Source: Betaproteobacteria bacterium
Lineage (GTDB): Bacteria; Pseudomonadota; Gammaproteobacteria; Burkholderiales; Ga0077523
Length of the DNA stretch: 64,000 nucleotides
Assembly: GCA_016125475.1 (NCBI GenBank)
Contig: WGLR01000040.1
Location: 1 to 64,000, forward strand
Direction: 5' to 3'
The position numbers and the translations under genes are program-made. Every line of letters begins with the position of its first letter. The first letter of the stretch is position 1. Shown here in pieces: positions 26,822 to 41,724 of the stretch. The notes beneath the pieces were generated by a model, which was not told the origin of the DNA, searched no databases, and saw only the letters and a program-made list of their open reading frames with translations.

Positions 26822-27673
26822 ATGCATTCACCACGCAGCCATACGGCTCAGGTCGTCGGCTATTACGACGCGCACCCCATCAACGAAGACCAGATCCTTC
26901 GGGCACTGTCCGAGCGAGGCCTCGATCTCGACCGCATCACGCAGGACGACCTGCAGACGCTCGATCAGGACCACTACGGCGGGCTCGAGGCCAACGACGC
27001 GCTGATCTCGGCCGCGGGCATTCGTCCCGGGCATCTCGTGCTCGACGTGTGCAGCGGGATGGGCGGGCCGTCGCGCTATGTCGCACACCGGATCGGATGC
27101 CGCGTGGTCGGCCTCGACCTCACGCCGAGCCGGTACGAGTCCGCGCAGCGACTCACGAAGCGCGTGGGGCTGGACCATCTCGTGAGTTTCCGGCTCGGGA
27201 GCGCGCTCGACATGCCGTTCGAGGACGCAAGCTTCGACGTGATCATGGGTCAGGAAGCCTGGTGTCACGTCCCGGAGAAGCCCCGCCTGATCGCCGAGTG
27301 CGCGCGGGTGCTCCGCCCCGGGGGCGTCATCGCGTTCACGGACATCCTTCGGAAGGCGGGCCTCACGGAGAGCGAGATGGATCGGCTCCGGGCGGAAATG
27401 ACGTTCCCCGAGCTTGGTACGCTGGACGGCTACGCGGCACTGCTGGAGGAGCAGGGCTGTCGCGTGGAGCGTCGTGACGATCTGAGCGCCGAGTGGACCC
27501 GGATCCTCGTCGATCGCCTCGCGATGTATCGCGGCCTCGGCCGGGAGACGGCGCGCAAGTTCGGCGAAGGGCGGTCGAAGGACTGGGACGCTTACTACAC
27601 GTTCTTCGTCGGTCTCTACGAGGCCGGGAAACTCGGCGGCGGGCGGTTCGTGGCGCGGAAGGGCGGCGACTGA
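26822..27673 (+). CDS. Class I SAM-dependent methyltransferase
   Basis: In this 283-residue protein motif I is VLDVCSGMGGPSRYVA (about 75-90), then VVGLDLTPSRYE (acidic SAM-binding strand), MGQEAWCHVPEKPRLIAECARVLRPGGVIAFTDI, as in Methyltransf_11 enzymes. The upstream TLDQDHYGGLEANDALISAAGI resembles sarcosine/dimethylglycine and related small-molecule N- or C-methyltransferases. The exact substrate cannot be read from sequence. The start has GGAGGAA 6 nt upstream. This is the last gene before the defence island; its stop lies 58 bp from the jetD stop on the other strand. Confidence 0.8.
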   Translation: MHSPRSHTAQVVGYYDAHPINEDQILRALSERGLDLDRITQDDLQTLDQDHYGGLEANDALISAAGIRPGHLVLDVCSGMGGPSRYVAHRIGCRVVGLDLTPSRYESAQRLTKRVGLDHLVSFRLGSALDMPFEDASFDVIMGQEAWCHVPEKPRLIAECARVLRPGGVIAFTDILRKAGLTESEMDRLRAEMTFPELGTLDGYAALLEEQGCRVERRDDLSAEWTRILVDRLAMYRGLGRETARKFGEGRSKDWDAYYTFFVGLYEAGKLGGGRFVARKGGD

Positions 27674-27722
27674 CAGGCACGGAGGTGGTGCGGGGCGATG
27701 CGCTGGCGGGTGCTACAGCGAG

Positions 27723-27733
27723 CGCCCGAGCTT
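27723..27733 (+). repeat. Left copy of an 11-bp direct repeat flanking the defence operon
   Basis: CGCCCGAGCTT, overlapping the end of jetD. The same 11 bp occurs at 39229-39239, upstream of the first gene of the island. In both places GGGGCGG follows within 6-9 bp. Confidence 0.4.
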
Positions 27734-28955
27734 ACGAGCGAGGGGGCGGGGCTACGAGGGCTCCCAAGGGGCTACACGCCAGTCGATCGCACAGCCAGCC
27801 AAAGCCCACGCGCTCCTGCTCCAGTCGCAGCCGGGGCTGGTGGCGATCGAATCGGAGGTCGTCATAGACGGCCGTCTCCTCGGGTGTGAGACGCGACAAG
27901 TCGTGGCGCGCAGGGTCGGGCTCCTCGCCCCAGTGCAGGCGGTGGGCAAGGAGAGTCTCGTGGTCCATTAGGAAGGACACCGCCCCGGGAAAGTAGCCAC
28001 GCAGCTGGTCGAGGATGGCGAATCCATGGGTATCGATGTCACCCCAATAGAGCAGCTGGCATCGATGCAGCCACGCGGCGCGCGCCAGCGCCTCCCAACC
28101 GTAGCCAGCGCCGAAGACGACAATGGATCCCGCGACGGCCGGGAAGGCGAGGAAGTTGGTCTCGTTCTCGGTGATGAAGACTCGTTCGACGGGCAAGGCC
28201 AGCGCCCCGAAGCTGGTGGCATCCAGCGTGATGTCAGCCAGTACACCGGGCAAGGCTTGGCAGCCCGGCAGACTGGGCAGCGCCGGGTCGAGCAGCCGAA
28301 ACCGGATCGGCACAGGCTTGTCCCGGAAGCCGAATCGGCGAGCGAACTGTGCGACGCCGATCGATCCAGTCTCGATGACCTCGGGTGGTAGGCCCAAGTC
28401 CAGCAACTCGGCCAAAACGCCTCGGTGGGCCTCGATGAACTTGCTGTCCACCCCGGGTGCGTCCACCTGGCGCAGGTAAACGCCCGGGCGCGGATGTGCT
28501 TGCAGCCATGCCACGATGGCCAGGAGTCGCTCCCAGCGGTCGGCCAGCTCCAGCGCCTGGATCGGCCGCCGGGACAGCCACGCCAGCAGCGCTGGCTGCG
28601 CGACCGCCGTCTGCTGCCACAAAGCCTCGAAGCGTTGCGCGTGACGAGCCTTGCCGATGAATGCCAAGGCTTCCTGTAGGCTGTCGAGCCAGACTGCTGC
28701 AGGAAGACGCTGCGTCCCTTGGACGCGATGGTTCCATTCCCGCCACTCGATGCGAACCTGCGGAGTCTCGGCGACGGCGCGCACCCAGTCGCGCACGGCC
28801 TCGAAGCGATCGGACAGGTCCGAGGCGCCGGGCGTCTTCAAGCTCAGGCGCAGGGGCCACGCAATGGCGCCCGTGACCGTCGCACGCAGCAACTCGCCCC
28901 GGTCCCACAGGCGTTGGGCCTGGGCTCGGAGGTCTGCCGGCATGGTCCAGCTCAT
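27732..28955 (-). CDS. jetD: Wadjet anti-plasmid system nuclease subunit JetD
   Basis: This 407-residue protein has a DUF3322 N-terminal part (about 1-190) and a DUF2220 C-terminal toprim-like domain. The metal-binding acidic residues are visible as ITENETN (E263) and YWGDIDTHG (D306, D308). JetD is the topoisomerase-VI/Spo11-like nuclease that cuts closed circular DNA once the JetABC motor has extruded it. The start at 28955 overlaps the jetC stop by 4 nt (ATGA), which decides it against a longer frame. It is the promoter-distal gene of the operon, and its stop codon lies in the left flanking repeat. Confidence 0.92.
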
Positions 28956-31900
28956 GGTGCCGCGTCGCCTTCCGCCGCGCCTGCGGCGGCCATCCCGTCC
29001 GCTGTGCCCGATGCCGTCCCTGCTGCCTTGTGCGTCCGGTACTCCTCGATCGACAGGCAGCGCAGCCGCGAGTCGCGACCGCCCTCGTTGTGCACGAAGC
29101 CAACGCTGGCCACGAAGGGCTCGATGATGTGGATCTTCTGCAGCGGCGTGACGATCAACAACTGCAGGTTGAGCTGCTGGAACAGGCGCAGCCCGTACTG
29201 CGCCGACTCGTCCGACCCGCGCCCGAATGCTTCGTCGATGACGACGAAGCGGAACGACCGCGAACGCACAGCGCCCCACTCTAGCCCGAACTGGTAGGCC
29301 AGGCTCGCCGCCAGCACGGTGTAGGCCAGCTTCTCCTTCTGACCTCCTGACTTGCCGCCCGAGTCCGAGTAGTGCTCGTGTTCGGCCTCGTCGGCGCGCC
29401 AGCGCTCGCTGGCCGAGAACAAGAACCAGTTGCGCACGTCGGTGACCTTGGCAGCCCAGCGCCGGTCGGCGTCCGACAGTCCTTCGCGGCCCCGGAATCG
29501 ATCAATGATGGCCTTCACCTGCAGGAACTTGGCTTCCGAATACTGTTCGTCCGTCGAGCCCGTCATCGCGCCCTCGGTGCACGCCCGCAGATCCTGCTGG
29601 AAGTCGCGGATCTCCGCATCCGGGCTGGGCAGCGCCACCAGCTTGATGTACCGGCCGGGGTTGTAGTCGATGGCTTGGAGCGACTGGTTGATGAAGTCGA
29701 CGCGCTCCTTGATCGTCTCGCGCTCGCGGGCGAGCTGGGCGTTGAAGTTGGCGATCTCGTTGATCGTGTTGACGTTGAGCAGCTCCTTGAAGCGCGCCTC
29801 GAATCGCGGCAGGTCGTCGCTCTTCAATCCGGTGAGCATCCGCTCGTACTCCGGCAGCGCCGCCAGGCTCACGTCCATCTCGACGGTCTCGGCCTTGAAC
29901 TCCTCCTTGAAGCCGCGCATGGCATTGACGATGCGCTCGGTCAGACGGGCCAGGCGCTTGTCCTCCGCGTCGATGCGCTCCTGCAGCCACTTGCGCACCT
30001 CCTGCTCCCGGTTGTCGCAGGACTCGACCGACAGTTGATGCTCGCCCAGCGTCTGCGAGCGCCAGCCATCCAGGCGCTCAATCTGCGTCGCGGTCAGCGG
30101 CAAGTCGTTCCACACGCTGCCGGCCTGATCCCGCATCGCCTGCGCTGTCTCACGCTTGCTCTTGACCTCGCCTCGCTTGCCCAACGCGTCGGACCGCTTG
30201 ACCTCCAGCTCGCCAAACCGCTCCTGTGCGGCCTTGAGCTGGCGCCCCAACTCTTGCAGGGTGTCGGATGCGGCTTCCAGCCGCGCGCGCTCCTCGGTGA
30301 GTCCAGCAATCTGGCGGGCCAGGCTCATCCAGTCGATGTCCGCAAAGCGCGTGAACTCCTCCAGCTTGCTGAGTGCATCGAGGCGGCCCCGCAGTTCGTT
30401 GCGCGCCTGCTGGATCTCGCCAATGCGCTGCCCGAGCAGGGCCAGCTTTGCCTCCAGACGCTCCCGCTGGTCTCGCAGGGCCCGCAGCTTGTCGGCATTG
30501 CTCCAGCCGAGCACATAGCGGCTGCGGTCGTCGATCCGGCTGCGGTCGTCCTTCTCGTGGCGACCGCTCGGGTCCTTGATCTGACCGGAGCGCGTGATGG
30601 CGCGCGCCTCGCGGCGAAACTGCTCTCCGGTGTCGCAGCACGCGACGTCGAAGCGCTGGCGAAGCTCCTGTTCCAGCCACTCATAGTGTGGTGAATCGTT
30701 CTTGATGGCGAGCTTGCGCACCAGCGACTGCGGATGCAGCGCCGCGCTTTGCGCCGCCTTTCGCGGACGCACATGGAAGTACACCAGGCGGGCACCCAGA
30801 TGCTGGCGGTCCACCCAGTCCGCAACGGCCTTGTAGTGCCCGTCCGGAACCAGCAGCGCGAGGCCGAAGCCGCGCAGCAGCCGCTCGGCGGCACCCTCCC
30901 AATCGCGCTCCTCGTCGCGCACCTGGATGAGCTCGCCCGCGAAAGGCAGTTCGTCCTCTCCGATCGCCAGCGCCGCACACAGCGCATCGCGAATGCGGAT
31001 CTGGGCGGCGTCGATGTTGCTCTTGCGCCGCTGGAGACTGTCGATCTCCTCGGACAGGGCGGCGTGCTCTTCACGGCCCTTGCGGAAAGTGAAGTCCTCT
31101 TCGCGCTCGCGGTTGTCCAAGTCGGCAATGCGCTCGCGCAAGCCTTCGGCACGCTGGCTGATGCTTTGCTGCTGGATGAGGAAGCCTGCTTCATCCCCTG
31201 GCGCCGACTCATCGATGCGGGCCAGCAGCTCTTGGAAGCGGTCTGACCTTTTCTGGCGTTGAACCTTGTCGCTCTCCAGACGGCGAATCTCTGCCGCCAG
31301 CTCCTCCAGGCGGTCGCCGCCGTTGTCGCGCAGGGCCCGCTCCAGGCGGCCGACTTCAACGCGCTCGGTCTCACGCTGCGCGTCCAGGCGCTCGATCTGT
31401 GCATCGAGCCGGGCCGCATCCTCCGCCAGCAAGTCGAGGCGGCGGTCCAGCAGCTCGCCCTTGAGCCGGGCGAAATACGGTCGAAGCCGATCGCGCGCAT
31501 CCCGCCAGCCCTGAATCTCGGCCGCGAGCAGCTGGTGGCGCGCGCCGTCCTCTACCAGGGGCGTCAGCAAGTCCACCTGCCGCTTGGCCTTGAGCACGGC
31601 CTGGTGCGCCCGGTCCAGGTCGTCGAAGTGGCGGATCAGGGCCTCGATGCGGCTGCCCACGTCGAAGGGTTCCAGCATGTGGCTGCGCACGAAGTCAGTG
31701 AGGTTGCCCACCGACTTCATCGAGACCGTCTGGTGGAACAGCTCCAAGGCCTGCTCGTGCTCGATGCCGAAGCGCCGGCGGAACCAGGCCCCATACGGCG
31801 GGAAGCTGTCGAACAGTTCGCAGCCCGCGCCCCGCAGCTTCTTGCGCAGGGCAGTGATGTCACTGCCGAAGCCGTTGAAGTCATCAGTGATGGTCAATCC

Positions 31901-32389
31901 CCGCTCAGCCGCCACGAACAGGCGTGCGGGTTGGCCCTGCGGGTCCTTCAGCCAGAAGACCTGTGCCAGCGTCACGGCCTGGTCATAGCCCTCGTTGCGG
32001 AAGACACCGAGGATGACCGAGTAGCTCGACGCATCGCGCAGCGCCACGGGCCGGGTACTGCCCGTGACCTCATTGCGCTCGCTCTTGTAGTGGCCCAGCA
32101 CGTACGACCGCAATGAGCGCTCGCGGGAATCCGCCCCGGCCGCCTTGTTGTACGCCACGCGATGCGCCGGCACGAGCAAGGTCGTGATGGCATCGACCAG
32201 CGTGGACTTGCCCGAACCGATGTCGCCCGTGAGCAGGCCATTGCGCCCATCGAGCTCATAGCGCCACACGCGTTTGTCGAAGGTGCCCCAGTTGAGCACT
32301 TCCAGCCGCTGCAGACGTAAGCCGACGCGGCTGTCGTCGGCCACGAAGTCCAGCCCCAATGTCCCAGCGTCCATCGGTGCCTCAAGCAT
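28952..32389 (-). CDS. jetC: Wadjet SMC/MukB-like ATPase JetC
   Basis: This protein of about 1145 residues has Walker A GDIGSGKS at 55-62, long coiled-coil arms (roughly 250-490 and 640-900, full of E/K/R/L heptads), ABC signature SGGQKEK at 1014-1020, and Walker [12 protein letters not shown] with D1052 and E1053. This is the MukB-like motor of type I Wadjet, which extrudes DNA loops to judge whether DNA is a small circle. The tail from about 1122 is Ala/Gly-rich low complexity. The start at 32389 overlaps jetB by 8 nt; an ATG at 32374 is an alternative with GAGG upstream. The stop overlaps the jetD start. Confidence 0.93.
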
Positions 32390-33071
32390 CCGCCTTCTCC
32401 TGGCCGGCATCTTGACCGGTGCCGCCCGACAGCGCCGTGCGGTAAACCTCCAGCCGCCCATCGAACTCCGCCAGCCACTGTGCGTCGACGAATGCCTTCA
32501 GGATGCGCCGCACCTCATAGTGGCCTCTGTCCTGCCCACCGCCAGCAGCAGGCTTGAGCCGGCGCAGAAAGCCCAGATCGACCACCTTGGTGATCGTCGC
32601 GTCCACCTGGTCGATCAGCCGAGCCTCATTCGTGCCATCGGGCAGAAACACCCGCATCAGCTCGGCGATGTCGTCGCGCGAGAGCACCAGTCGGGTGTCC
32701 CCACCGCCGGCGTCAAACTCGGCCATGCGCTTGCGCAGCAGCGCCAGCATCAGGCTCACCGGGTAGGAAAGCGGCCGGCGTGCGACGAGCCGTGGCAGGC
32801 GGGGGGCTCCCTCGGCCTCGTCCGGGTCCGGGCGGCTCTTCAGAAAGGCGTGGCCTTCGGCCTCGTCCAGCACCAGGTCGAGCAGCAGCACGGCGGCCTG
32901 TTCCCGCACCCGCGCCTGCAGGCGCAGCAGGCTGGCCCACAGGCGCTCATCGTCGTCGCGGTAGAGCACACCCTTAAGCAGGTGCACCATCAGCTGCGAC
33001 AATTCGGGCACCGCCGGCAGCACGCTGGGCGGCGGCTCCACCGAATCGTCGTCGTGCAGTGCGTCGTCCAT
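32382..33071 (-). CDS. jetB: Wadjet subunit JetB (DUF4194, MukE-like)
   Basis: JetB is a small winged-helix (KITE/MukE-like) protein of about 229 residues, DUF4194 family: [44 protein letters not shown] and [31 protein letters not shown] are recognisable. It bridges JetA and the JetC arms in the Wadjet motor. The ATG at 33071 has GGGAG 8 nt before it; a GTG at 33098, 2 nt after the jetA stop, would add nine residues but lacks a ribosome-binding site. It overlaps jetC by 8 nt. Confidence 0.9.
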
Positions 33072-33100
33072 GTTCATGTCTCCCTGGCCGCTCGACACCG

Positions 33101-34570
33101 TCAGCGCGTAAAGATCACGCGCGGCAAGCGCGCCTCGCGCGTCACGGCTTCACCCACTGCGTTGCGGGCCAGCCAACGGATCGGCTCTTCCACGGCCTCG
33201 TCGACCAGGGCGCGCAGGCCCTCCAGACCGTCGCCGTCCCCGGCGTGGGCCAGCTCCAGGTAGGCCACCAGTTCGGCCAGGCCCTGGTGCAGAGGCTCGG
33301 CATCCAGCAGCTCACGCAGCGTGATCTGCGGCTGGCGGCGCAGTGCGCGTTGCACGGTTGACCGCAGGCGCGCCTTGTCCACCACGATCTGGTCGAACAA
33401 GCGCCCGGTGTCAATGTCGTCCTCGCCAGCGACGAGCGCCATATCAGCCAGGCGCGGCTTCACGCTCGGCGTGAACAACGGCCTCTCCAGCGGCAGCTCG
33501 ATGTCCGCCGCCATCGCGTCGATGTGCATCACTATGCCGGAGGGCGTCGCCCCGCGCAGCGCCAGCGCCTTGCTCTCGATGCCGTGCAGCAAGTCCAGGA
33601 TGCGGCGGTTCTCCAGAAAGGCCCGGTCGTCCAGGAAGCGGCGCAACTGCTGCGACAGTTGGGCCACCGTGCGCTGCGTGTGTTCGCCGGCTTCCAGCCA
33701 GTCGTGATGCACGCGGCGGGTGCGCGGTTCGGGCTTCAGCGCCACGACGGCGGGCAGCGCCAGCACCTGATCCAGCCGCTCGGCGAGTTCCTCCTGTCGC
33801 CGGCTGGACATGAGGAAGTCCCAGAAAGCGCGGAAGCTGCGGCCCTGGTCGGAGTCGCCGATGGCATCGCGCTCGCCCATGATCTCGTCGAGCAGCGCAC
33901 CCTTGGCGCCTTCCCACAGCGCGATCTTCTCGCGCACCTTGCGGTCGAGCCCGCGGAAGTTGTGCTCCACCTCGCGGAAATCGGCCAGCAGCTCGCGCGC
34001 CAGTTGCTGGAACTGCTGAAAGCGGTCCTTGACCGCCGTGTCGTCCAGCAGGGGCACGTCACCGGCCAGCACGCGGGCGATTTCGGCGTCCAGCTCGTCG
34101 CGCTTCTTGCGCAGATCAGCTACGCGCTTGATCGGGTCGGCCTCGGTGCCGGCGCTGATCTGATCCAACAACGCGAACAGCGTGAGCAGGCGCGACTCGG
34201 TGCCGACGAATGGGCGCTCGGTCAGCGTCAGCAACCAGGCGACGGCCTTCTCGGTGGCCGGCGTCAGGTCGAACTGCGCCTCGTCCGTGCCCGGCTTGTA
34301 GAACTTGCGCAGCCAACCCTTGTCGGGCGCGGCCCAGTCGTTCAGGTAGTCCTGCGCGCCCTTGGGGTAAGCCTCGGGCCCCAACTGCTCACGCAGGGCG
34401 TACAGCTCGTCCTCCAGCGCCTCCGCAAGATCGGCCTCGCTCATCACGCGCACGTTGGGCGCCACGTACGCGCGGTGCAGGAAGCTCGCCACCAGCGGCG
34501 CATGCGGCGAGGCCAGCAGCCGCCAGGCGGGGTGGCGGTCGCGCAGGGTCGAGAGGGATGCGTGGTCCAC
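33101..34570 (-). CDS. jetA: Wadjet subunit JetA (DUF3375, kleisin/MukF-like)
   Basis: This 489-residue DUF3375 protein has an N-terminal winged-helix region (HPAWRLLASPHAPLVASFLHRAYV), a central alpha-helical bundle (about 150-330) and a C-terminal winged helix. It is the kleisin-like link of the Wadjet SMC complex. The start is a GTG 18 nt after the stop of the upstream helicase gene, so translation probably follows from the same message as the restriction-modification genes. The order jetA-jetB-jetC-jetD is the type I Wadjet order. Confidence 0.92.
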   Translation of the reverse strand: MDHASLSTLRDRHPAWRLLASPHAPLVASFLHRAYVAPNVRVMSEADLAEALEDELYALREQLGPEAYPKGAQDYLNDWAAPDKGWLRKFYKPGTDEAQFDLTPATEKAVAWLLTLTERPFVGTESRLLTLFALLDQISAGTEADPIKRVADLRKKRDELDAEIARVLAGDVPLLDDTAVKDRFQQFQQLARELLADFREVEHNFRGLDRKVREKIALWEGAKGALLDEIMGERDAIGDSDQGRSFRAFWDFLMSSRRQEELAERLDQVLALPAVVALKPEPRTRRVHHDWLEAGEHTQRTVAQLSQQLRRFLDDRAFLENRRILDLLHGIESKALALRGATPSGIVMHIDAMAADIELPLERPLFTPSVKPRLADMALVAGEDDIDTGRLFDQIVVDKARLRSTVQRALRRQPQITLRELLDAEPLHQGLAELVAYLELAHAGDGDGLEGLRALVDEAVEEPIRWLARNAVGEAVTREARLPRVIFTR

Positions 34571-34588
34571 CGCGATGAACTCTCGGAA

Positions 34589-37315
34589 TCAGCTCTGCCG
34601 AACCAGCGATGGGGATAGCTTCTCCTCGAGCCAATCCCACCGCTTGTCCTTGACCATTACGAAGCGGCAGCGCCCCCCGGACAGGTTTGCCCATAGGCCG
34701 CCAATCAACCGGTCATCCTCCGCACCAGCCCAACGATCCGCTCCCTTGTATTCGACGGCCAGGATCGGGCCGGGCTTGTTTGCGCTGCCCGGCAACTGAC
34801 ACAGGAAGTCAGGGTAGAAGCGCCCGTCCGCCTTTTGCAGGAAGAACGAACTTCCTTCGCGTCGAACGAGGTTGCGAACCCAGAACTGGACGCGCCCCTG
34901 CTGCGCCTGAATGTCGAGCCAGCAGGCGCACTCGAACTCCTCCTTGCTATCGAAGTCGCCGATGCGGCCATAGAAATGCTTGCGGAAGTCAAAGTGCCCG
35001 AAACGGCCGTCGTAGTCACGGCTGGGCGCGTAGGCCTGCGCGTGGCACTCAAAGGCGTACTGATCCGTCACCGCGACGCGCGATGCCGCATCGTCGCCGA
35101 ACAGTGCCTGCTGGAACGCCTTGCCAACAGCCAGCCTGTGCAGCTCACGAATGCGTGCTTCCAACAGGTTGCGCAGCATGAACTTCTGCAGATTCGCACG
35201 GGCCAGCGTGAAGCCCTCACGGCGCAACAGTTCGGTCAGCCACTTGGCCACGAAGGCTTGCTTGCTCGCGTGGGTGAGTGACGGCTCCGGCAGATTCCGG
35301 CACAGCCACGTCGCGAGGCGCACCTCGTCCCAGTGCTCGGGCTGATAGACCAGCCCCAGGTCACGCTGCAAATCGGGCAGGAATCGCGAGACGACTTTGC
35401 CGCTCTCGCCATCGACATCGATCTCGCCGCCTTCGGACACCTTGAGGCCCGCGGCCAGCGCGGTGATGTCGTCACCTGTCGGCGCGGCGTCGTACGTCGA
35501 CAAGTCCCACGGGTAGTCGAGCACCTCCGGGTCGTCGAACAGTTGCAGCTCACCTTGTACGCGCAGCGCCAGCTGCGGCACGCGGAGGCGGTCACCCAAC
35601 TCGGCCGGCGTCCGGAAGAACTCGATGGCCGTTGTACGGCTGATCTCGGCCGCCTCTACGATGGCAGCCGCCGCCGAATCGCTCGTGACTGAAGCCTTCA
35701 GCACGTCGGCCTCGTCCTCGGTCAGCGGCGTGGTGATGGTCAGCGTGTTGAGCTTGCCGTCCCAGCTCACCTTGTCGCGCACCGGCTTTGGCACGCTCTT
35801 GAGATCGGGCTTCTCGGTCAACGTGATCGCCACCGGACGAACCACGACGCGCCCAGCGTGACCTTCCAAGTCCAGCCTTGCCTGCTCGGACTTGGCGGCG
35901 GTGACGAACTCGGTCACCTCGCGTCGCTCGAAGCCCGCGCCCGCCACCAGACGGTCTCGCAGCGCGCCTGCCGTCTCGGCAAAGTTGCGTGACACCACGA
36001 AGGCGTAGGACTGATTCAAAGCCTTGGCCTGCCGATGGCTGGCGCCGGGTTGACGCAACACGCGCCCGAGCAATTGCTCCACCGCCGTGGCCGATGACAG
36101 CGAGGCCATGCTCACCAGGATGTAGGCGAACGGGCAGTCCCAGCCCTCGGCCAGCGCTTTCTGGGTGATCACAAACCTCACCGGGCAGGCCGGGTCGGCA
36201 ATGCCCAGCTTGTAGTCGGTATCGATCTGCTCCAGCCCCTTTTCCTCGCCGGTGGCTACGACGATCTCGCTGGCCGGAATGCCGTGGTTGGCGATCAGTT
36301 CGTTCTTGACGCGCTCGAAATCCAGCGTCTCCACTCCAGCACGGCGGGGCTCCGATTGAATCAACACCAGCGGCCGGAGGTAGGGGTTGCCCGCCCGGCG
36401 TTCCTCATCGGCCAGCTTGTGCAGGGCGTCGCGGCGGCCGATGGCGTCGGCCAGACACTGTTGCCAGTTCGGCTCGGTTTCCAGCACCACGGGCAGCTTG
36501 ATCATTTCCTCCGCCTTCAATTCGGCGGCGGAGACGCTGTGCAGCACATTGCTCGGCGTGCGTTCCAGGTCGGGCGTGGCGGTCAGTTCCATCACGCCGC
36601 TGGGGCGGAAGCGCGCCAGCATGTCGAAGGCCAGTTCGGTGCGGCTGTTGTGCGCCTCGTCCACCACCACGAAGGGCCGACGCAGGCGCAGCACGTTGGC
36701 CAGCGAGCACGGCGTCGTGCGGTCGGCACCTTCCCCTTCGCTCAACAAGCCGTCGCGCTGCGTGGGTGACAGGTTGTCGAAGTGGTGCATCAGTGCGCCG
36801 CTGCTCTGGTACACCTTGCGGGACTCCTCGTCCTCCACCTGAAACGCCTGCCGGGTGGCGACGATGATCGTGGTCGAGGTGTCCAGCGTCGCGCGGGTCA
36901 CGCTCTTGGCCTCGTCGAGGTCCATCACCGTGATGGGCCCGGCCTCGCGCAGCGCCGTGTGGTACGGATGCAGGCGGTCGCGCAGGGCCCGCAAGGTCTG
37001 CTCGCGGATGGGTTTGCTCGGCACCAGCCACAGGATCACGCTGTGCTCGCAGCGCAGCAGATGCGTGTTGACCAACGCCACGCTCTTCGCCGCCAGCCAG
37101 GTCTTGCCGCCGCCGGTTGGTACGCGCAGGCAGAAGTACGGCATGTCGGGCGGAAAGCCCGAAAGCGGGCTGTACGCATTGCCACGCCCCCACAGGCGCT
37201 CCGTGGTGGCGGTGAAAGCAATCGAGGGGGACGGCAGCTCGTGGCAGGCCTTGAAGTAGGCCTCGACGCTGTCGAGCACCTGCTGCTGGTAAGTCTTGGG
37301 TGCGAACGTACTCAT
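34589..37315 (-). CDS. res: Type III restriction-like DEAH helicase-nuclease (Res)
   Basis: This 908-residue SF2 helicase has Walker A PTGGGKT (66-72), DEAH (219-222), TATP (245-248), ALAEGWDCP (388-396) and QLLGRVLR (414-421). The C-terminal PD-(D/E)xK nuclease is visible as D836 in YPDF, then E855 and K857 in VEYKG. This is the architecture of the Res subunit of type III restriction enzymes, which translocates from unmethylated sites and cuts. The ATG is 3 nt after the stop of the methyltransferase gene, and jetA begins 18 nt after its stop, so it lies in one operon with both systems. Confidence 0.88.
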   Translation of the reverse strand: MSTFAPKTYQQQVLDSVEAYFKACHELPSPSIAFTATTERLWGRGNAYSPLSGFPPDMPYFCLRVPTGGGKTWLAAKSVALVNTHLLRCEHSVILWLVPSKPIREQTLRALRDRLHPYHTALREAGPITVMDLDEAKSVTRATLDTSTTIIVATRQAFQVEDEESRKVYQSSGALMHHFDNLSPTQRDGLLSEGEGADRTTPCSLANVLRLRRPFVVVDEAHNSRTELAFDMLARFRPSGVMELTATPDLERTPSNVLHSVSAAELKAEEMIKLPVVLETEPNWQQCLADAIGRRDALHKLADEERRAGNPYLRPLVLIQSEPRRAGVETLDFERVKNELIANHGIPASEIVVATGEEKGLEQIDTDYKLGIADPACPVRFVITQKALAEGWDCPFAYILVSMASLSSATAVEQLLGRVLRQPGASHRQAKALNQSYAFVVSRNFAETAGALRDRLVAGAGFERREVTEFVTAAKSEQARLDLEGHAGRVVVRPVAITLTEKPDLKSVPKPVRDKVSWDGKLNTLTITTPLTEDEADVLKASVTSDSAAAAIVEAAEISRTTAIEFFRTPAELGDRLRVPQLALRVQGELQLFDDPEVLDYPWDLSTYDAAPTGDDITALAAGLKVSEGGEIDVDGESGKVVSRFLPDLQRDLGLVYQPEHWDEVRLATWLCRNLPEPSLTHASKQAFVAKWLTELLRREGFTLARANLQKFMLRNLLEARIRELHRLAVGKAFQQALFGDDAASRVAVTDQYAFECHAQAYAPSRDYDGRFGHFDFRKHFYGRIGDFDSKEEFECACWLDIQAQQGRVQFWVRNLVRREGSSFFLQKADGRFYPDFLCQLPGSANKPGPILAVEYKGADRWAGAEDDRLIGGLWANLSGGRCRFVMVKDKRWDWLEEKLSPSLVRQS

Positions 37316-37318
37316 GGC

Positions 37319-38923
37319 TTACACCTCCAGCGCGTAAGGGGTTTGCTTGAAGGTGATGCCCTCGCGTGCCGCGCGGCCACCGATGCGGTTGGCAGCGGCG
37401 TAGATCACTTTGGGGCCGGCGAATTTCGGCAGCACATCGAACACCGGGCCGGTGAGCACGTTGCCGCCAGCAGCCGAGCGGTCTTTGAGGATGCCGTTGT
37501 AGAGCAAGTAGATCGCGCGGCCCTCGTGTAGGCCGAGCAGCGGCGAATCGGCTTGGCCCGTGTAGCCCGTGCCGGTCTCGGCGAACCACACGAACTCGGC
37601 CAGTTGGGCGAAGGTCACATCGCGCCGGATCTGGCCCTCGGCATCGAACAGAGGTTCCGCAGAGAGGCGGCAGAACTGGAAGCCGCCTCCGAGGCCTGTA
37701 ATCTGTTCGCCCTTTGAATTCGAATAGCCTGCGATGGCCCGCGCCGCCCGGCTGGCAGTGATCTTCGTCGCCACACTGGGCAGCATTTCCACCTGGATGA
37801 ATCGGCGCGAACCCCCGTCCTCGACGTTCTGCTTGAGCACCGCGTGGCCGGTCGTGCCCGAACCCGCGAAGCTGTCAAGGACGATGGAGTCTCTGTCGGT
37901 CGCGATCTGAAGAATGCGCTGTATCAGACGTGTGGGCTTCGGAGTAATGAAAACGTCATCGCTCGACTCGAAGTCTACGAGTTCAAGCAGTTCCTTCTTA
38001 GCTTCCTGCGTATGACCGACATCCTTGTGAAACCACATCGTCTGCGGCACGACCCCGTCTTTGACGTCGGACAGAAACCGCTTGAGCCGCGGCATGTTGC
38101 TTCCATCGTCGCCCCACCAGATGCGACGATCACGGTCGAGCTCGGCGAACTTCTCTTTTGACACGCGCCAGTACATCCCACGACCAGGTCCGGGAATAAC
38201 GCGGCCAGACGGGCAAGTCACCGGATACGTGCCCTCGCCGTAGTAGTTCCGCGCCTGTAGATCGCCAGACGTCCACGGACCTCGAGGATCGTTGTCAGGA
38301 TTCTTGTACCTCGCAGTTGCCTCTTCCGCGCGCGGTATGAGGTTGGGCCGCCATCTGTCTGCTTTCGCTGCGTAGACGACGATGTAGTCGTGATCTTCCG
38401 ATAGGTGGCGCGCGCTGTTCTTCGGCGCAAAGACCTTCTGCCAAAGAACTGTGGCCACGAAATTGCGCGCACCGAAGATCTCGTCCATCAAGAGCCGAAG
38501 CGTCGCAATCTCGTTGTCGTCGATGGATACGAAGATCGCGCCATCCTCGCGAAGGAACTGCCTCAACAGAACCAAGCGCGGGTACATCATCGATAGCCAG
38601 CGGTCGTGCCGGTCCAGCGTCTCACCTTCCTTGCCGACCACCTCGCCCAGCCACTTGCGGATCTCTGGGCTGTTGACGTTGTCGTTGTAAACCCAGCCCT
38701 CGTTGCCGGTGTTGTAGGGCGGGTCGATGTAGATGCACTTAACCTGGCCGGCATAGCGGGGCAGCAGGGCCTTGAGCGCATGCAGGTTGTCGCCCTGCAC
38801 GATGAGGTTGCCGCTCCCGCTGTCGCCGCAGGAGAGGTCGGGCGCCGGCTCCAACAGGCGGAAGGGCACTTCCTTGTAATGCTTGACGACGGCTTCCTTG
38901 CCGATCCAGTTCAGTGTGGGCAT
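37319..38923 (-). CDS. mod: Type III-like beta-class DNA adenine-N6 methyltransferase (Mod)
   Basis: In this 534-residue protein the catalytic motif DPPYNTGN (67-74) comes before the SAM-binding motif FAGSGTTGH (352-360), the beta-class order. PKPTRLIQRIL (328-338) is motif X. The variable middle (about 185-300) should be the target-recognition domain; its DNA, near 37.9-38.5 kb, is visibly poorer in G+C than the surroundings, which suggests exchange of recognition domains. It methylates one strand of an asymmetric site, protecting host DNA from the adjacent Res. The recognition site cannot be read from sequence. The C-terminal extension (about 430-534) is less conserved. Confidence 0.9.
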   Translation of the reverse strand: MPTLNWIGKEAVVKHYKEVPFRLLEPAPDLSCGDSGSGNLIVQGDNLHALKALLPRYAGQVKCIYIDPPYNTGNEGWVYNDNVNSPEIRKWLGEVVGKEGETLDRHDRWLSMMYPRLVLLRQFLREDGAIFVSIDDNEIATLRLLMDEIFGARNFVATVLWQKVFAPKNSARHLSEDHDYIVVYAAKADRWRPNLIPRAEEATARYKNPDNDPRGPWTSGDLQARNYYGEGTYPVTCPSGRVIPGPGRGMYWRVSKEKFAELDRDRRIWWGDDGSNMPRLKRFLSDVKDGVVPQTMWFHKDVGHTQEAKKELLELVDFESSDDVFITPKPTRLIQRILQIATDRDSIVLDSFAGSGTTGHAVLKQNVEDGGSRRFIQVEMLPSVATKITASRAARAIAGYSNSKGEQITGLGGGFQFCRLSAEPLFDAEGQIRRDVTFAQLAEFVWFAETGTGYTGQADSPLLGLHEGRAIYLLYNGILKDRSAAGGNVLTGPVFDVLPKFAGPKVIYAAANRIGGRAAREGITFKQTPYALEV

Positions 38924-38938
38924 GGCGCCTCGTGACCT

Positions 38939-39154
38939 TCAGTTTTTGCGGGCGTTGTGGACGCCCGCGCTTTGTTCTTCATCCGCGCCCCCGGCGCGCA
39001 CCCAGTCGTCCACCTCAGACAGCTTGAACTTCCACAGCCGCCCGACGCGGTGCGCCGGCAGTCCCCGGTGTTCCCGCCAGCGATAGACGGTGTCCTTAGC
39101 CACGCCCAGGTGCTGGGCGACCTGCTCGACGGAAACCCACGGTTCTGTGGTCAT
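38939..39154 (-). CDS. Small excisionase-like HTH DNA-binding protein
   Basis: This 71-residue protein of the HTH_17 type has WVSVEQVAQHLGVAKDTVYRWREHRGLPAHRVGRLWKFKLSEVDDWV, a MerR/Xis-like winged helix. Such small proteins act as excisionases or local regulators. It is the first gene of the minus-strand island, 15 nt before mod, so it could regulate the operon. The ATG at 39154 begins MTTEPWVSV; an upstream ATG (39187) would add 11 unremarkable residues. No clear -35/-10 pair was seen in the 100 bp upstream. Confidence 0.8.
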   Translation of the reverse strand: MTTEPWVSVEQVAQHLGVAKDTVYRWREHRGLPAHRVGRLWKFKLSEVDDWVRAGGADEEQSAGVHNARKN

Positions 39155-39228
39155 GGTGTCCGCGCTTGCCAACTGGAAGCGCCTCAAGTCGATTAAACCG
39201 GATGAAAGTCTATCAGGGGGAGTGCGCT

Positions 39229-39239
39229 CGCCCGAGCTT
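39229..39239 (+). repeat. Right copy of the 11-bp direct repeat flanking the defence operon
   Basis: CGCCCGAGCTT, 75 bp upstream of the HTH gene start, identical to 27723-27733, with GGGGCGG at 39246-39252. Confidence 0.4.
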
Positions 39240-39260
39240 GGCTTCGGGGCGGAACAGCGC

Positions 39261-39497
39261 GTGAATCAGGGCATCGCGATCAACCCAGACACCCCGATGC
39301 GCCACACCGATCCCGGCACCGCATACGCCGCGCGCACCACGCAGATCCACGTCAAGCTGGCGCGGCTGCAGCAGCTGGCCGCCGACCACTTCGGCCATGA
39401 CCCGGATGCCATCCAGTGGGGCCACGTCGCCGACCTGGGGCGGGTGGAGCAGGCGCTCGACGAGCTGCTCGCCATCTTCGACGGTCCGCCCGAGTGA
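39261..39497 (+). CDS. Small hypothetical protein on the island flank
   Basis: This is a 78-residue reading frame from GTG 39261 (an internal ATG at 39297 would give 66). The C-terminal part QIHVKLARLQQLAADHFGHDPDAIQWGHVADLGRVEQALDELLAIF looks like real protein: amphipathic helices and GC3-rich codons. Similar small proteins are found beside DUF3489 genes and recombinases on mobile islands, as far as I recall, and a DUF3489 relic does follow here. It has no known function. It is divergent from the HTH gene. Confidence 0.5.
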   Translation: MNQGIAINPDTPMRHTDPGTAYAARTTQIHVKLARLQQLAADHFGHDPDAIQWGHVADLGRVEQALDELLAIFDGPPE

Positions 39498-39508
39498 CGG
39501 AGGCCGCG

Positions 39509-39755
39509 ATGGAAACGCTGCCCGGCTCAAACTTCTGGAGGAAATCCCGGTCCGCCCCGGCAACAAGCTAGCTGCCCTCGTGGTGGCGTTACACCGCTCG
39601 CAGGGCGCGACCAACCTGCAACTGATGCTGGCCACCGAATGGCAACTGCATTAGGGGTGTTCGGTGCGATCTCGGGCCTGCTGCGCAAACGCCTCGGCTT
39701 GAACGTCGTGCTGACTCTCAATGTCGCCGGCGAACGGGTGTGCCGCATGCGGTGA
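39509..39755 (+). pseudogene. Broken DUF3489 gene
   Basis: Two fragments in different frames together match the DUF3489 domain: GNKLAALVVALHRSQGATNLQLMLATEWQLH up to a stop at 39652-39654, then VFGAISGLLRKRLGLNVVLTLNVAGERVCRM from 39657 to a stop at 39753-39755. In intact members the two halves run on as WQ-x-H-(S/T)VRG-x-(I/L)SG. Here five bases instead of three separate the H codon from the next, an apparent 2-nt insertion that also creates the stop. The N-terminus is unclear. Confidence 0.65.
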
Positions 39756-39795
39756 CCGACGCGCCGCAAAGACTTGGAATTCAATTCATACTTTT

Positions 39796-39820
39796 GGGGT
39801 ACACACGATCTGCGTACCCC
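39796..39820. repeat. Inverted repeat GGGGTAC/GTACCCC
   Basis: This is a perfect 7-bp inverted repeat with an 11-nt spacer in an AT-richer pocket between the DUF3489 and ParD relics. It has no T-tract on either side in the right orientation, so it is not a standard terminator. It may be a recombination or regulatory remnant. Confidence 0.4.
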
Positions 39821-39863
39821 AGCACTAGATTTCAGCGGGCGGCTGTTCCAGCGGGGCGCGGAC

Positions 39864-40155
39864 CTACGAGAGCACTCGGCGACCCCGCAGACGAACCGTC
39901 ACGCGACGCCGGGTTCCTGCATCCACCCGGGGGCGTGCTGCCGGCCGAGCCGCGCTGCGCACACGCTCACGCAGTCCCTCGAAGTAGCTCTCGGTCACCC
40001 CCCGCAGCGCCCGCGAGGAGCAGGTCCCGCAACTGCAACCGGTCCTGATTGTGGCTGATCAGTTCGTGCACGTACTCGCTGCTGGTCCCGTAGGCGCGCA
40101 GATCGGCGCCGAACCCCCGCGTGATGCCACGGAACCCGGAAATGAAAACGCCCAA
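39864..40155 (-). pseudogene. Frameshifted, N-terminally replaced ParD-type antitoxin fragment
   Basis: The frame contains YGTSSEYVHELISHNQDRLQLRDLLLAGAA, the C-terminal half of the ParD (CC2985) ribbon-helix-helix antitoxin family. The expected continuation AYFEALRERV appears as SYFEGLRERV, but in another frame; the break lies at a run of six C (39998-40003). The ribbon-helix-helix N-terminus is missing, replaced by MGVFISGFRGITRGFGADLRA. No ParE toxin was found. A homopolymer sequencing error could account for the frameshift, but not for the missing N-terminus. Confidence 0.55.
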
Positions 40156-40172
40156 CCGACGAAGGTTGGGCG
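40145..40172 (-). terminator. Rho-independent terminator downstream of lysS
   Basis: CGCCCAACC and GGTTGGGCG form a 9-bp stem with a 6-nt loop, followed on the minus strand by TTTTC. It is oriented to end transcription coming from lysS. Confidence 0.8.
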
Positions 40173-40177
40173 CTGAA

Positions 40178-40210
40178 TGGTAGTGGGCAGAGGGGTAATC
40201 GAACCGCCTG
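40178..40210 (-). other. tRNA-3'-end-like segment (possible integration scar)
   Basis: On the minus strand, directly after lysS, the sequence reads GGCGGTTCGATTACC and ends CACTACCA. GGTTCGATT is the usual T-loop region and the end resembles acceptor-CCA; GGCGGTTCGATT is the same as typical tRNA-Phe T-arms as I recall them. The T-stem does not pair properly and no 5' half of a tRNA is present, so it is not a functional gene. Confidence 0.3.
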
Positions 40211-40221
40211 CGCGCGGACCT

Positions 40222-41724
40222 TCAGTCCTCCGGACGCATGTGCGGAAACAGGATCACGTCGCGAATGCTGGGGCTGTCGGTGAGCAGCATCACGAAGCGG
40301 TCGATGCCGATGCCTTCGCCCGCGGTCGGCGGCAGACCGTATTCCAGCGCACGGATGTAGTCGGTGTCGTAGTGCATGGCTTCCTGGTCGCCCGCGTCCT
40401 TCTGGCGGACCTGTTCCATGAAACGTTCGGCCTGGTCCTCGGGGTCGTTCAGCTCCGAGAAACCGTTCGCAATCTCGCGTCCCGCGATGTAGAGCTCGAA
40501 ACGGTCCGTGACGTCCGGATTCGCGTCGTTGCGGCGTGCGAGCGGCGAGACCTCGGCCGGATAGTCCACGATGAACGTCGGCTGCACGAGCTTCGATTCC
40601 GTCGTCTCCTCGAAGTAGGTGAGCTGGAGGCCGCCGAGTCCGTCCGAGGGCTTGTAGTGCGCGCCCATGCGCTCGAGCGACGCGACCAGCCAGCCCCGGT
40701 CGTTGAGCTGATCCTCGGTCACCTCGGGGTGGTAACGGCACACGGCTTCGGTCACGGTCAGTCGCGCGTAGGGTGCGCCGAGGTCGATGGTTTCTCCCTG
40801 ATAGGTGACACGCGTCGTGCCGAGGACCTGCTCCGCCGCGTTGCGGAACATGGCTTCGGTGAGGTCCATGAGGTAGCGGTAGTCCTGATAGGCCTCGTAG
40901 AACTCCAGCATCGTGAACTCGGGATTGTGGCGGGGCGAGATCCCCTCGTTGCGGAAGTTCCGGTTGATCTCGAACACCTTCTCGAAGCCCCCGGTCACGA
41001 GTCGTTTCAGGTAGAGCTCCGGCGCGATGCGCAGGTAGAGCGGCATGTCGAGCGCGTTGTGGTGGGTCGCGAACGGCCGCGCCGAGGCGCCGCCCGGGAT
41101 CGGGTGCATCATGGGCGTCTCGACCTCGAGGTAGCCGCGACCGACGAGGAACTCGCGGATCGCCTGGATGACCTTCGAGCGGGTCACGAACGTGCGGCGG
41201 GTCTCTTCGCTGACGATCAGGTCGACGTAGCGCTGGCGATACTTCTGTTCCTGGTCAGTGAGCCCGTGGAATTTCTCCGGGAGGGGTCGCAGCGATTTCG
41301 TGAGCAGGCGCACGCCCGTCACCTTGATCGTGAGTTCGCCCGTTCGCGTGCGAAAGAGCGTGCCTTCCGCGCCGAGTATGTCCCCGAGGTCCCAGTGCTT
41401 GAACTGCTCGTGTGCCTCGGCACCCACACCGTCGTTGCTCACGTAGAGCTGGATGCGGCCCGACATGTCCTGGATCGTCGCGAAGCTCGCCTTGCCCATC
41501 ACGCGCTTGAGGACCATGCGGCCGGCGACGCGCACGCGCACCGGCTCGGCTTCGAGGGTGTCGTTCTCCTTGCCCTCGAACGTGCGCTGGAGTTCGGCAC
41601 AGAGGTGCTCGCGGCGGAAGTCGTTCGGGAACGCCTGACCGGACGCGCGCAGGTCCGCGAGCTTCCGTCGTCGTTCGGCGATGATCTGGTTGTCGTCGGT
41701 GGGGGGCTGCTGGGAGGCGGTCAT
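40222..41724 (-). CDS. lysS: Lysyl-tRNA synthetase (class II)
   Basis: This 500-residue enzyme charges tRNA-Lys. It has an OB-fold anticodon-binding domain (about 60-170: [18 protein letters not shown]), then class II motifs: motif 1 near [13 protein letters not shown], motif 2 [24 protein letters not shown], motif 3 [10 protein letters not shown]. The length equals the family norm. It is last in the recJ-DUF4010-prfB-lysS minus-strand series, 73 nt after prfB, and is followed by a strong terminator. Confidence 0.96.

Follow-up and report, generated by a model that had tools for sequence, protein, structure and literature searches.

A probable HTH-jetABCD frame around an exchangeable restriction-modification slot in a betaproteobacterial genome

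The minus strand of the window (64,000 nt of contig WGLR01000040.1 from a Betaproteobacteria bacterium) carries, from 39154 to 27732, a row of seven genes encoding a small HTH protein, the Mod and Res subunits of a type III restriction-modification (RM) system and a complete type I Wadjet system, JetABCD (Table 1). Throughout the row, neighbouring genes overlap or are separated by at most 18 nt, with gaps of 15 nt (HTH-Mod), 3 nt (Mod-Res), 18 nt (Res-JetA) and 2 nt (JetA-JetB) and an overlap of 4 nt between JetC and JetD (jetD ATG 28955). A first-pass annotation had described these genes as a composite operon; all seven are present and tightly packed as it stated, and its spacings hold, the 8 nt jetB/jetC overlap being dependent on ATG 32389. 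From ATG 32374, where alignments of most jetC relatives start, the two genes lie 7 nt apart. The best PADLOC scores are 718 bits for MTase_III and 404 for REase_III among the RM genes, and 721, 316, 1656 and 504 for JetA1, JetB1, JetC1 and JetD1. Pfam matches agree with these assignments, confirming the annotated combination of a full type I Wadjet with a complete type III RM system. Every part of the row is a member of a known family; the novelty lies in the comparison with relatives.

Table 1. Coordinates of the features at the locus (positions in the window).
Feature	Position	Strand	Evidence or remark
jetD, toprim nuclease	27732..28955	-	15 protein letters (not shown); Pfam, PADLOC
jetC, SMC ATPase	28952..32374 (possible start 32389)	-	GSGKST, SGGQ, VIDEAF; Pfam, PADLOC
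jetB, DUF4194, MukE/MksE-like	32382..33098	-	Pfam, PADLOC
jetA, DUF3375, kleisin, GTG start	33101..34570	-	Pfam, PADLOC
res, type III restriction subunit, 908 aa	34589..37315	-	PTGGGKTW, DEAH, TATP; Pfam, PADLOC
mod, type III N6-adenine methyltransferase, 534 aa	37319..38923	-	DPPYNTG, FAGSGTTG motifs; Pfam, PADLOC
putative exchangeable RM slot	34571..38966	-	window vs L004 (different RM): homologous outside, not inside
HTH protein, 71 aa	38939..39154	-	HTH_17, excisionase-type domain, MAD1-like; ORF extendable to TTG 39187
conserved leader	39155..39368	-	contains inverted repeat
divergent small ORF	39213..39497	+	by eye, resembles N-terminus of the serine-recombinase ORF that precedes HTH in L061

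The gene spacing suggests that the row forms one transcription unit. A scan of positions 27300-40300 found no terminator-like sites between its minus-strand genes; the four such sites observed in all compare with 6.8 expected from shuffled sequence, so that the scan says little in either direction. One of them, a weak 5-pair stem, falls within the 3'-terminal part of jetA, and another follows lysS (40174-40147). The same region contains no promoter-like sites, where 0.8 would be expected.

Genes jetA, jetB, jetC and jetD are adjacent and in the order that defines type I Wadjet, and the ATPase motifs of JetC and the toprim acidic residues of JetD can be read in the sequence, so that the window shares all four subunits, their order and their active-site motifs with that system (PADLOC JetA1-D1). 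JetD was aligned with MksG (8b7f), with further matches to JetD chains 8q72 and 7til, and JetC matches solved chains 8dk2 and 8as8. The published Wadjet unit is jetABCD, whereas the row in the window adds HTH and RM genes in front (PMC10586767).

Mod contains an N6_N4_Mtase domain and matches solved Mod chains 6k0w and 4zcf; its alignment is variable from about position 150 to 400, with conserved ends. Res has a ResIII helicase domain and, at its C-terminus, the PDF...EYK of a PD-ExK nuclease (by eye only), but no match to solved chains at E 0.001. The pair therefore combines the Mod motifs and target-recognition region with the helicase-nuclease of a type III system, the nuclease motif being read by eye, and both subunits are of the EcoP15I-like kind. 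Type III systems methylate DNA and cut at paired asymmetric sites; in the window, unlike such systems, res is followed by jetA at 18 nt. In a tree of Res (12 rows, L010 left out; L numbers denote individual loci), Jet-linked and stand-alone proteins are not separated.

The HTH gene probably begins at ATG 39154 and not at the annotated TTG 39187, since the DNA ahead of this ATG is conserved leader. The leader holds an inverted repeat, GCGCTT-N9-AAGCGC (39182-39162, read by eye), that is a candidate operator and is not retained in L019. As a single strand the leader folds no better than its shuffles (z -0.14), so no hairpin is claimed. The divergent ORF that begins within it is probably what is left of a recombinase module, judging from its resemblance to the L061 ORF.

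The HTH protein scores above the cut-off of excisionase domain TIGR01764, with a weak RdfS match, while its best NCBIfam match is MAD1. Intact homologues lead the RM-Jet row in L004, L005, L006, L019 and L061. Assignment of the protein to the mod-res system itself was rejected, as none of the seven stand-alone type III loci has such an HTH gene upstream, in contrast to the window. A Jet-specific role was likewise rejected, since its relatives in viral contigs mostly lead RM operons without Jet: among the 33 with at least 1 kb downstream (near-copies among contigs kept in the count), a methyltransferase match starts within 1 kb downstream on the same strand in 24. Because the family leads RM operons elsewhere, the protein is likelier to be a regulator than an excisionase. 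The earlier description of it as excisionase-like, with a possible part in expression or mobility, is thus retained for the domain and narrowed towards regulation. No convincing direct repeats flank the unit among the best 20 of 24 repeat families, and the one trace of a recombinase beside the row is the putative remnant ORF.

Two known arrangements are comparable. In MADS, a small HTH gene, mad1, likewise heads a methylase-containing operon; the window protein reaches 66.7 bits against a MAD1 cut-off of 80, no other gene of the row matches a mad family among the PADLOC hits listed, which for Mod leave out nine weaker ones, and Mod and Res match type III families best, not mad, which places the row outside MADS. 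BrxR-type HTH/WYL regulators of defence islands are also first genes and presumed autoregulators, and their homologues are described as co-localizing with Wadjet among other systems (PMC9122601). The window protein differs in having HTH_17 and no WYL match in Pfam, and its regulatory role is predicted.

The linkage proposed from the window alone recurs, with HTH-Mod-Res-Jet or variants of it present in other genera. RM genes or remnants lie within 1500 nt upstream of jetA in 19 of 83 JetA relatives, window included and four near-copies dropped (20 of the 87 clade loci with near-copies), all co-directional, and in 16 of the 60 clade loci whose upstream sequence reaches 1500 nt or more; by the same references, no RM was seen upstream in the other 44, on the opposite strand within 1500 nt upstream of jetA in any of 87, or within 1500 nt downstream of jetD in any of 77. 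The references for type I, fused and Eco57I-like RM were taken from some of the surveyed loci, which match themselves by construction. A Pfam scan that used no references recovered, in the two closest upstream genes (121 proteins), ResIII six times, N6_Mtase three times, and N6_N4_Mtase, HSDR_N and HSDR_N_2 twice each; these families are absent from the best 25 of 165 in the downstream scan (124 proteins), and so have at most one member each there. An RM-Jet row is carried by isolate L019 (Variovorax dokdonensis CGMCC 1.12089, 250-kb contig), in the order HTH-HsdR-HsdS-HsdM-JetABCD, and by isolate L027 (1.1-Mb contig), and a scar by isolate L003 (633-kb contig). An assembly artefact was rejected, the pattern being present in isolates on long contigs.

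Beyond the clade, co-directional RM upstream was not seen in any of the 28 more distant JetA1 loci of the class sample, one of which has only 94 nt there; the type I matches of L084 are on the opposite strand. Order-level samples of 2 and 36 genomes added two JetA loci, L141 with a scar and L140 with none, and no JetA relative was confirmed in viral contigs. Among plasmids, JetA matches occur in 10 records, one above 60% identity and viewed in context, and Res matches in 50, all below 60%. A literature search found no published description of the HTH-RM-jetABCD arrangement.

An unlikely explanation of the row is that of plain defence-island neighbourhood, in which the spot before jetA tolerates insertions and offers a useful upstream promoter, with no shared regulation or function. 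It would account for the 44 loci without RM and the several with only scars, for plasmid pTs485, where Jet has a convergent methyltransferase-helicase pair on its downstream side, and for C. necator, whose type I and IV RM and type III Wadjet have near-consecutive locus tags (PMC12645576). The bias of strand and side beside jetA argues against it. That bias is weaker farther out, with oppositely oriented type I genes 3.5-7 kb upstream in L046 and L091 and, in L039, a Mod gene on the downstream side of jetD at a distance of 1.85 kb.

The kind of RM before jetA differs among relatives, being type III, type I, or a fused nuclease-methylase with a specificity subunit; the linkage is accordingly not confined to type III, the form described in the first-pass annotation. 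The fused form, in L004 and L061, carries PADLOC labels MTase_I and Specificity_I. Its reading as a methylase and specificity subunit without nuclease was rejected, and it is presumably BcgI-like, because the methylase ORF carries the nuclease-type domain HSDR_N_2. Across 13 compared locus pairs, those with different RM types and an HTH gene are homologous at the DNA level over leader and HTH, up to a point near the HTH end, and again from the jetA start. Between the window and L004, it covers 407 nt of leader and HTH at 86%, stops at -4396 (38966), is absent from the RM slot and returns at 90% from jetA position 1. The window shows the same pattern with L019 (283 nt at 78%) and likewise with L003, and L061 and L062 have 402 nt in common at 83% and match throughout from -7 onwards. 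Where both loci of a pair carry one RM type (window/L006, window/L005 and L018/L080), homology continues within the slot too. HTH identity follows JetA identity (r 0.93; as high in 118 of 5040 permutations, from seven rows only, in two clusters) and not the sharing of an RM type (r -0.22), and RM types are scattered over the JetA tree. These breakpoints, and the conservation of HTH and leader across RM types, speak further against mere neighbourhood.

Since the RM differs, homology brackets the slot and HTH divergence follows JetA, the window appears to carry one state of an HTH-[exchangeable RM]-jetABCD frame. Scars in L001, L003, L010, L062, L063, L070/L071 and L141 and an HTH fragment in L020 indicate that Jet outlives RM in relatives; L018 and L080 have Mod-Res-Jet without HTH, and L080 keeps Mod-Res-JetA without JetBCD. 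With RM unseen in 44 of 60 relatives and several bearing scars only, the coupling of RM to Jet is facultative, and with the slot also exchangeable, joint function is not obligatory. It is very improbable that Wadjet is directly guided by methylation or by the activity of Res, for instance through the linearization or marking of circles: the shared row is all that points to such coupling, the slot is occupied by RM types with different machinery, and Jet is retained without any detected RM.

It is also rather improbable, though compatible with an operon frame, that RM, with nearby toxin-antitoxin genes, stabilizes a mobile Wadjet island, its position serving retention and not defence. Genes of toxin-antitoxin type are repeatedly present nearby: by eye, a PIN-like ORF separates Mod from Res in both L018 and L080 and L006 has ParD/ParE-like ORFs upstream, and among genes downstream of jetD the Phd and ParE families have six members each. 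Also consistent with this reading are the serine recombinase upstream in L061 and the absence of any match to Jet, HTH or RM at the lysS locus in two relatives of the same genus with both flanks seen. The persistence of Jet in the 44 relatives without detected RM runs counter to it.

The preferred explanation, with a probability of about two in three, is that the row is one operon-like defence unit, in which a fixed frame, with leader and HTH at its 5' end and jetABCD at its 3' end, surrounds an exchangeable RM slot. It draws on the genes, their tight packing, the recurrence of the frame, the breakpoints, the scars and the tracking of JetA rather than RM by HTH. RM cassettes would be swapped by recombination in the common flanks, and the HTH protein would control a promoter ahead of its own gene, a single message yielding regulator, methylase, nuclease and then Wadjet. 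As RM would cut unmodified DNA at its own sequence and Wadjet small circles regardless of sequence, a constant and a variable defence arm may thereby be expressed together. In the first-pass annotation, one such message would deal with phages and plasmids alike. A more tentative extension, at somewhat less than even odds, is a Wadjet lineage with a built-in socket: leader-HTH and jetA would hold any arriving RM, exchanged by recombination, so that a constant, sequence-blind anti-circle arm is always co-expressed with a renewable sequence-specific one, under one regulator for types I, III and fused.

The usual picture of a defence island is one of complete systems in a loose neighbourhood. Several relatives here appear to have a common operon frame that keeps one defence system constant and swaps the other at breakpoints close to the HTH end and at the start of jetA. 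Such loci may offer a natural experiment on possible selection for the joint regulation of RM and anti-plasmid defence, and on the movement of RM systems, and they caution annotators against treating HTH, RM and Jet genes as separate items.

All seven genes that the first-pass annotation had placed in one minus-strand row, HTH-mod-res-jetABCD, were found and are closely spaced, with successive distances of 15, 3, 18 and 2 nt, then an overlap or 7 nt, and finally a 4-nt overlap. Pfam and PADLOC assign HTH_17 to the first gene. In PADLOC, Mod and Res score as MTase_III (718 bits) and REase_III (404 bits), and the Jet proteins as JetA1 (721 bits), JetB1 (316 bits), JetC1 (1656 bits) and JetD1 (504 bits). 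Among solved chains, Mod matches 6k0w and EcoP15I 4zcf, JetC matches 8dk2 and 8as8, and JetD aligns with the MksG chain 8b7f, with further matches to the JetD chains 8q72 and 7til; Res has no match at E 0.001. The motifs read in translation (Mod: DPPYNTG, FAGSGTTG; Res: PTGGGKTW, DEAH, TATP and a C-terminal PDF...EYK; JetC: GSGKST, SGGQ, VIDEAF; JetD: ENETNF, WGDIDTHGF) are in line with the earlier description of a type III enzyme and of the SMC and toprim-nuclease parts of Jet. Simple scans found no promoter, and no terminator-like site between genes on the row's strand apart from one weak stem within the jetA end; one such site follows lysS. The terminator scan is weak evidence, because it found 4 sites compared with 6.8 in shuffles. 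A single transcript, DNA binding and a defence function are predicted from sequence alone.

Coordinates of the gene row and of features at the compared loci (L-numbers, loci from other genomes)
Locus	Position	Strand	Feature
Window	39154-27732	-	HTH (ATG 39154), mod, res, jetA, jetB, jetC, jetD (end 27732)
Window	39967-40155	-	ParD-antitoxin-like fragment upstream of the row; by eye resembles ParD/ParE-like pair before L006 HTH
Window	39397-39654	+	Sub-threshold DUF3489 match (E 0.00084) beside recombinase-module remnant
L061	3809-5781	-	Serine recombinase ORF and partner ORF, divergent from HTH-RM-Jet row; partial copies in L004, L003
L039	9215-10816		Mod, 86% identity to window Mod, 1.85 kb downstream of jetD; no Res match in locus
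L080	9914-11491		Mod-(PIN-like)-Res-JetA; no JetB, JetC or JetD match in next 4.5 kb
L068	2-6137		Eco57I-like methylase, AAA/DUF3696 ATPase, 169-aa ORF, RNA ligase; one run before jetA
L015	15635		Extra ORF between jetC and jetD
L047	15245-16879		Extra ORFs between jetC and jetD

The genome search proposed earlier for the same gene order recovers HTH-RM-Jet rows elsewhere, including type III rows in L006 and L005. Restriction-modification (RM) genes or remnants lie on the same strand within 1500 nt upstream of jetA in 20 of 87 loci (the 80 closest of 562 confirmed JetA relatives, the window and six genome-sample loci at a JetA identity of at least 68.5%), or 19/83 once four near-copies are removed and two further pairs at 97.1% retained. 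RM genes were found on the opposite strand over this distance in 0/87 loci and downstream of jetD in 0/77. Many relatives are metagenome-assembled, with contigs often ending just upstream of jetA; among the 60 clade loci with at least 1500 nt of upstream sequence, 16 carry RM and none was seen in 44. These counts leave out L068, where the methylase stands farther up the same gene run. At 3-4.5 kb upstream, RM matches are co-directional in 10/56 loci and on the opposite strand in two (L046 and its copy L091). In the class sample (32 of 42 JetA places fetched, after setting aside the window's own, fragments and pieces at contig ends), co-directional RM just upstream of jetA occurs in 0/28 more distant JetA1 loci.

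Because the RM references were partly drawn from counted loci (L004, L019, L027, L061, L067, L068), a reference-free Pfam scan of the two nearest genes was added, omitting the window, the six extra loci, near-copies L052, L053, L060 and L071, and one very long L031 upstream protein; 8 loci had no upstream gene and 11 no downstream gene. The 121 upstream proteins include ResIII (6), N6_Mtase (3), N6_N4_Mtase (2), HSDR_N (2) and HSDR_N_2 (2); none of these families is among the best 25 of 165 for the 124 downstream proteins, which contain one McrBC component and six members each of Phd and ParE. A two-gene cluster just after jetD (c8/c10; L014, L061, L062, L063, L064, with c8 only at the contig end of L065) is read as a Phd/ParE toxin-antitoxin pair. 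Five of the upstream proteins match AbiEi_4. A ~200-aa family (c6), ~100-170 nt upstream of jetA in L050, L051, L052, L053, L056, L057 and L060, is perhaps another leader regulator for Wadjet.

The slot between HTH and jetA holds different RM types. Type III systems occur in the window, L006 (where a further 174-aa ORF separates Mod from Res), L018 and L080 (a PIN-like ORF in that place, by eye), L016 (at a contig edge) and L005 (where a deletion has shortened both mod and res). L004 and L061 carry a nuclease-methylase fusion, with HSDR_N_2 and N6_Mtase on a single protein, next to a specificity subunit; PADLOC labels the two MTase_I and Specificity_I, and we take these systems to be BcgI-like. 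Type I systems are found in L019, the isolate Variovorax dokdonensis CGMCC 1.12089 (order R-S-M; R and M by PADLOC, S by a weaker match), and in L027 and L067 (R by PADLOC in both; M in L027 and S by weaker matches). Scars, or RM remnants, comprise specificity-subunit ends (L001, L003, L063, L141), a Res end (L010), a Mod start (L062), methylase pieces (L070 and its copy L071) and an HTH piece (L020); at a contig edge, L045 weakly matches a specificity subunit. In 8/9 intact-looking rows the jetA-adjoining gene ends 2-26 nt before jetA (L067, 101 nt); in L027 this gene is a 180-aa ORF, with HsdR 649 nt from jetA.

The slot is framed by conserved DNA. By eye, the window, L003, L004, L005 and L006 have ~80 nt of conserved leader directly ahead of the HTH ATG, and L019 has it in weaker form, whichever RM comes next. 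In pairwise DNA comparison (13 pairs), leader and HTH are homologous between the window and L004 over 407 nt (86%), the slot shows no homology, and identity is 90% from the first base of jetA. The same breaks appear against L019 (283 nt at 78%) and L003 (50 nt at 90% plus 329 nt at 73%); L061 matches L062 over 402 nt (83%) and then throughout from 7 nt before jetA. Window-L001 and L062-L063 homology is confined to the jetA side, L001 and L063 having no HTH match, and in same-RM-type pairs homology continues within the slot.

Across seven usable HTH proteins (one internal stop in that of L062), HTH identity correlates with JetA identity (r 0.93, a value reached in 118/5040 permutations) and not with RM type (r -0.22; 4608/5040). 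As the seven rows form two clusters, this is modest evidence that HTH divergence goes with JetA. On a quick LG+G4 JetA tree, which leaves many forks open, RM types show no significant clustering (7 changes, with as few in 51/200 shuffles), which is what an exchange of types would predict. The window's nearest rows by path length are L001 (specificity scar), L006 (type III), L002, L003 (specificity scar) and L004 (fused).

The row sits between lysS and a methyltransferase gene. In seven same-genus relatives (both flanks visible in L126 and L129, the lysS side alone in five), the lysS-locus stretches match no Jet, HTH or RM reference (7/7), and other genes, their functions read by eye, occupy the interval in L126 and L129. 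Hence either the unit was acquired locally or the site is variable.

RM-Wadjet neighbourhood as such is already known, since a report on Cupriavidus necator gives nearly consecutive locus tags for type I RM, type IV RM and a type III Wadjet (PMC12645576). Plasmid pTs485 carries, downstream of its Jet genes and convergent with them, a site-specific methyltransferase and a DEAD/DEAH helicase. No report of RM genes inside a jet operon was found among the matches listed from open-licence literature, searched by titles and abstract starts with few subscription papers or preprints covered.

The small first gene had been called excisionase-like, and its protein does score above the cut-off of an excisionase-type domain model, with RdfS as best solved chain (E 0.0015); its role is now read differently. 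Against the model of MAD1, from the leader gene of the methylation-associated defence system (MADS), it scores below the cut-off (66.7 bits against 80). HTH relatives at E 1e-14 occur in 16 genomes of the 369-genome class sample, the window's included. Relatives also lie on 39 viral contigs, near-copies included, with 0/39 carrying Jet matches. In 24 of the 33 viral contigs with at least 1 kb downstream, a same-strand methylase match starts within 1 kb after HTH (20 to type I references, 4 to Mod). HTH is absent from stand-alone relatives of the window mod-res (0/7; two viral contigs, five genomes), as it is from composite rows L018 and L080, and 0/5 class-sample genomes whose Res reaches 60% identity, the window's excluded, have a JetA1 match. 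Together these counts indicate that HTH is a general leader of RM operons, which in this lineage also heads Wadjet.
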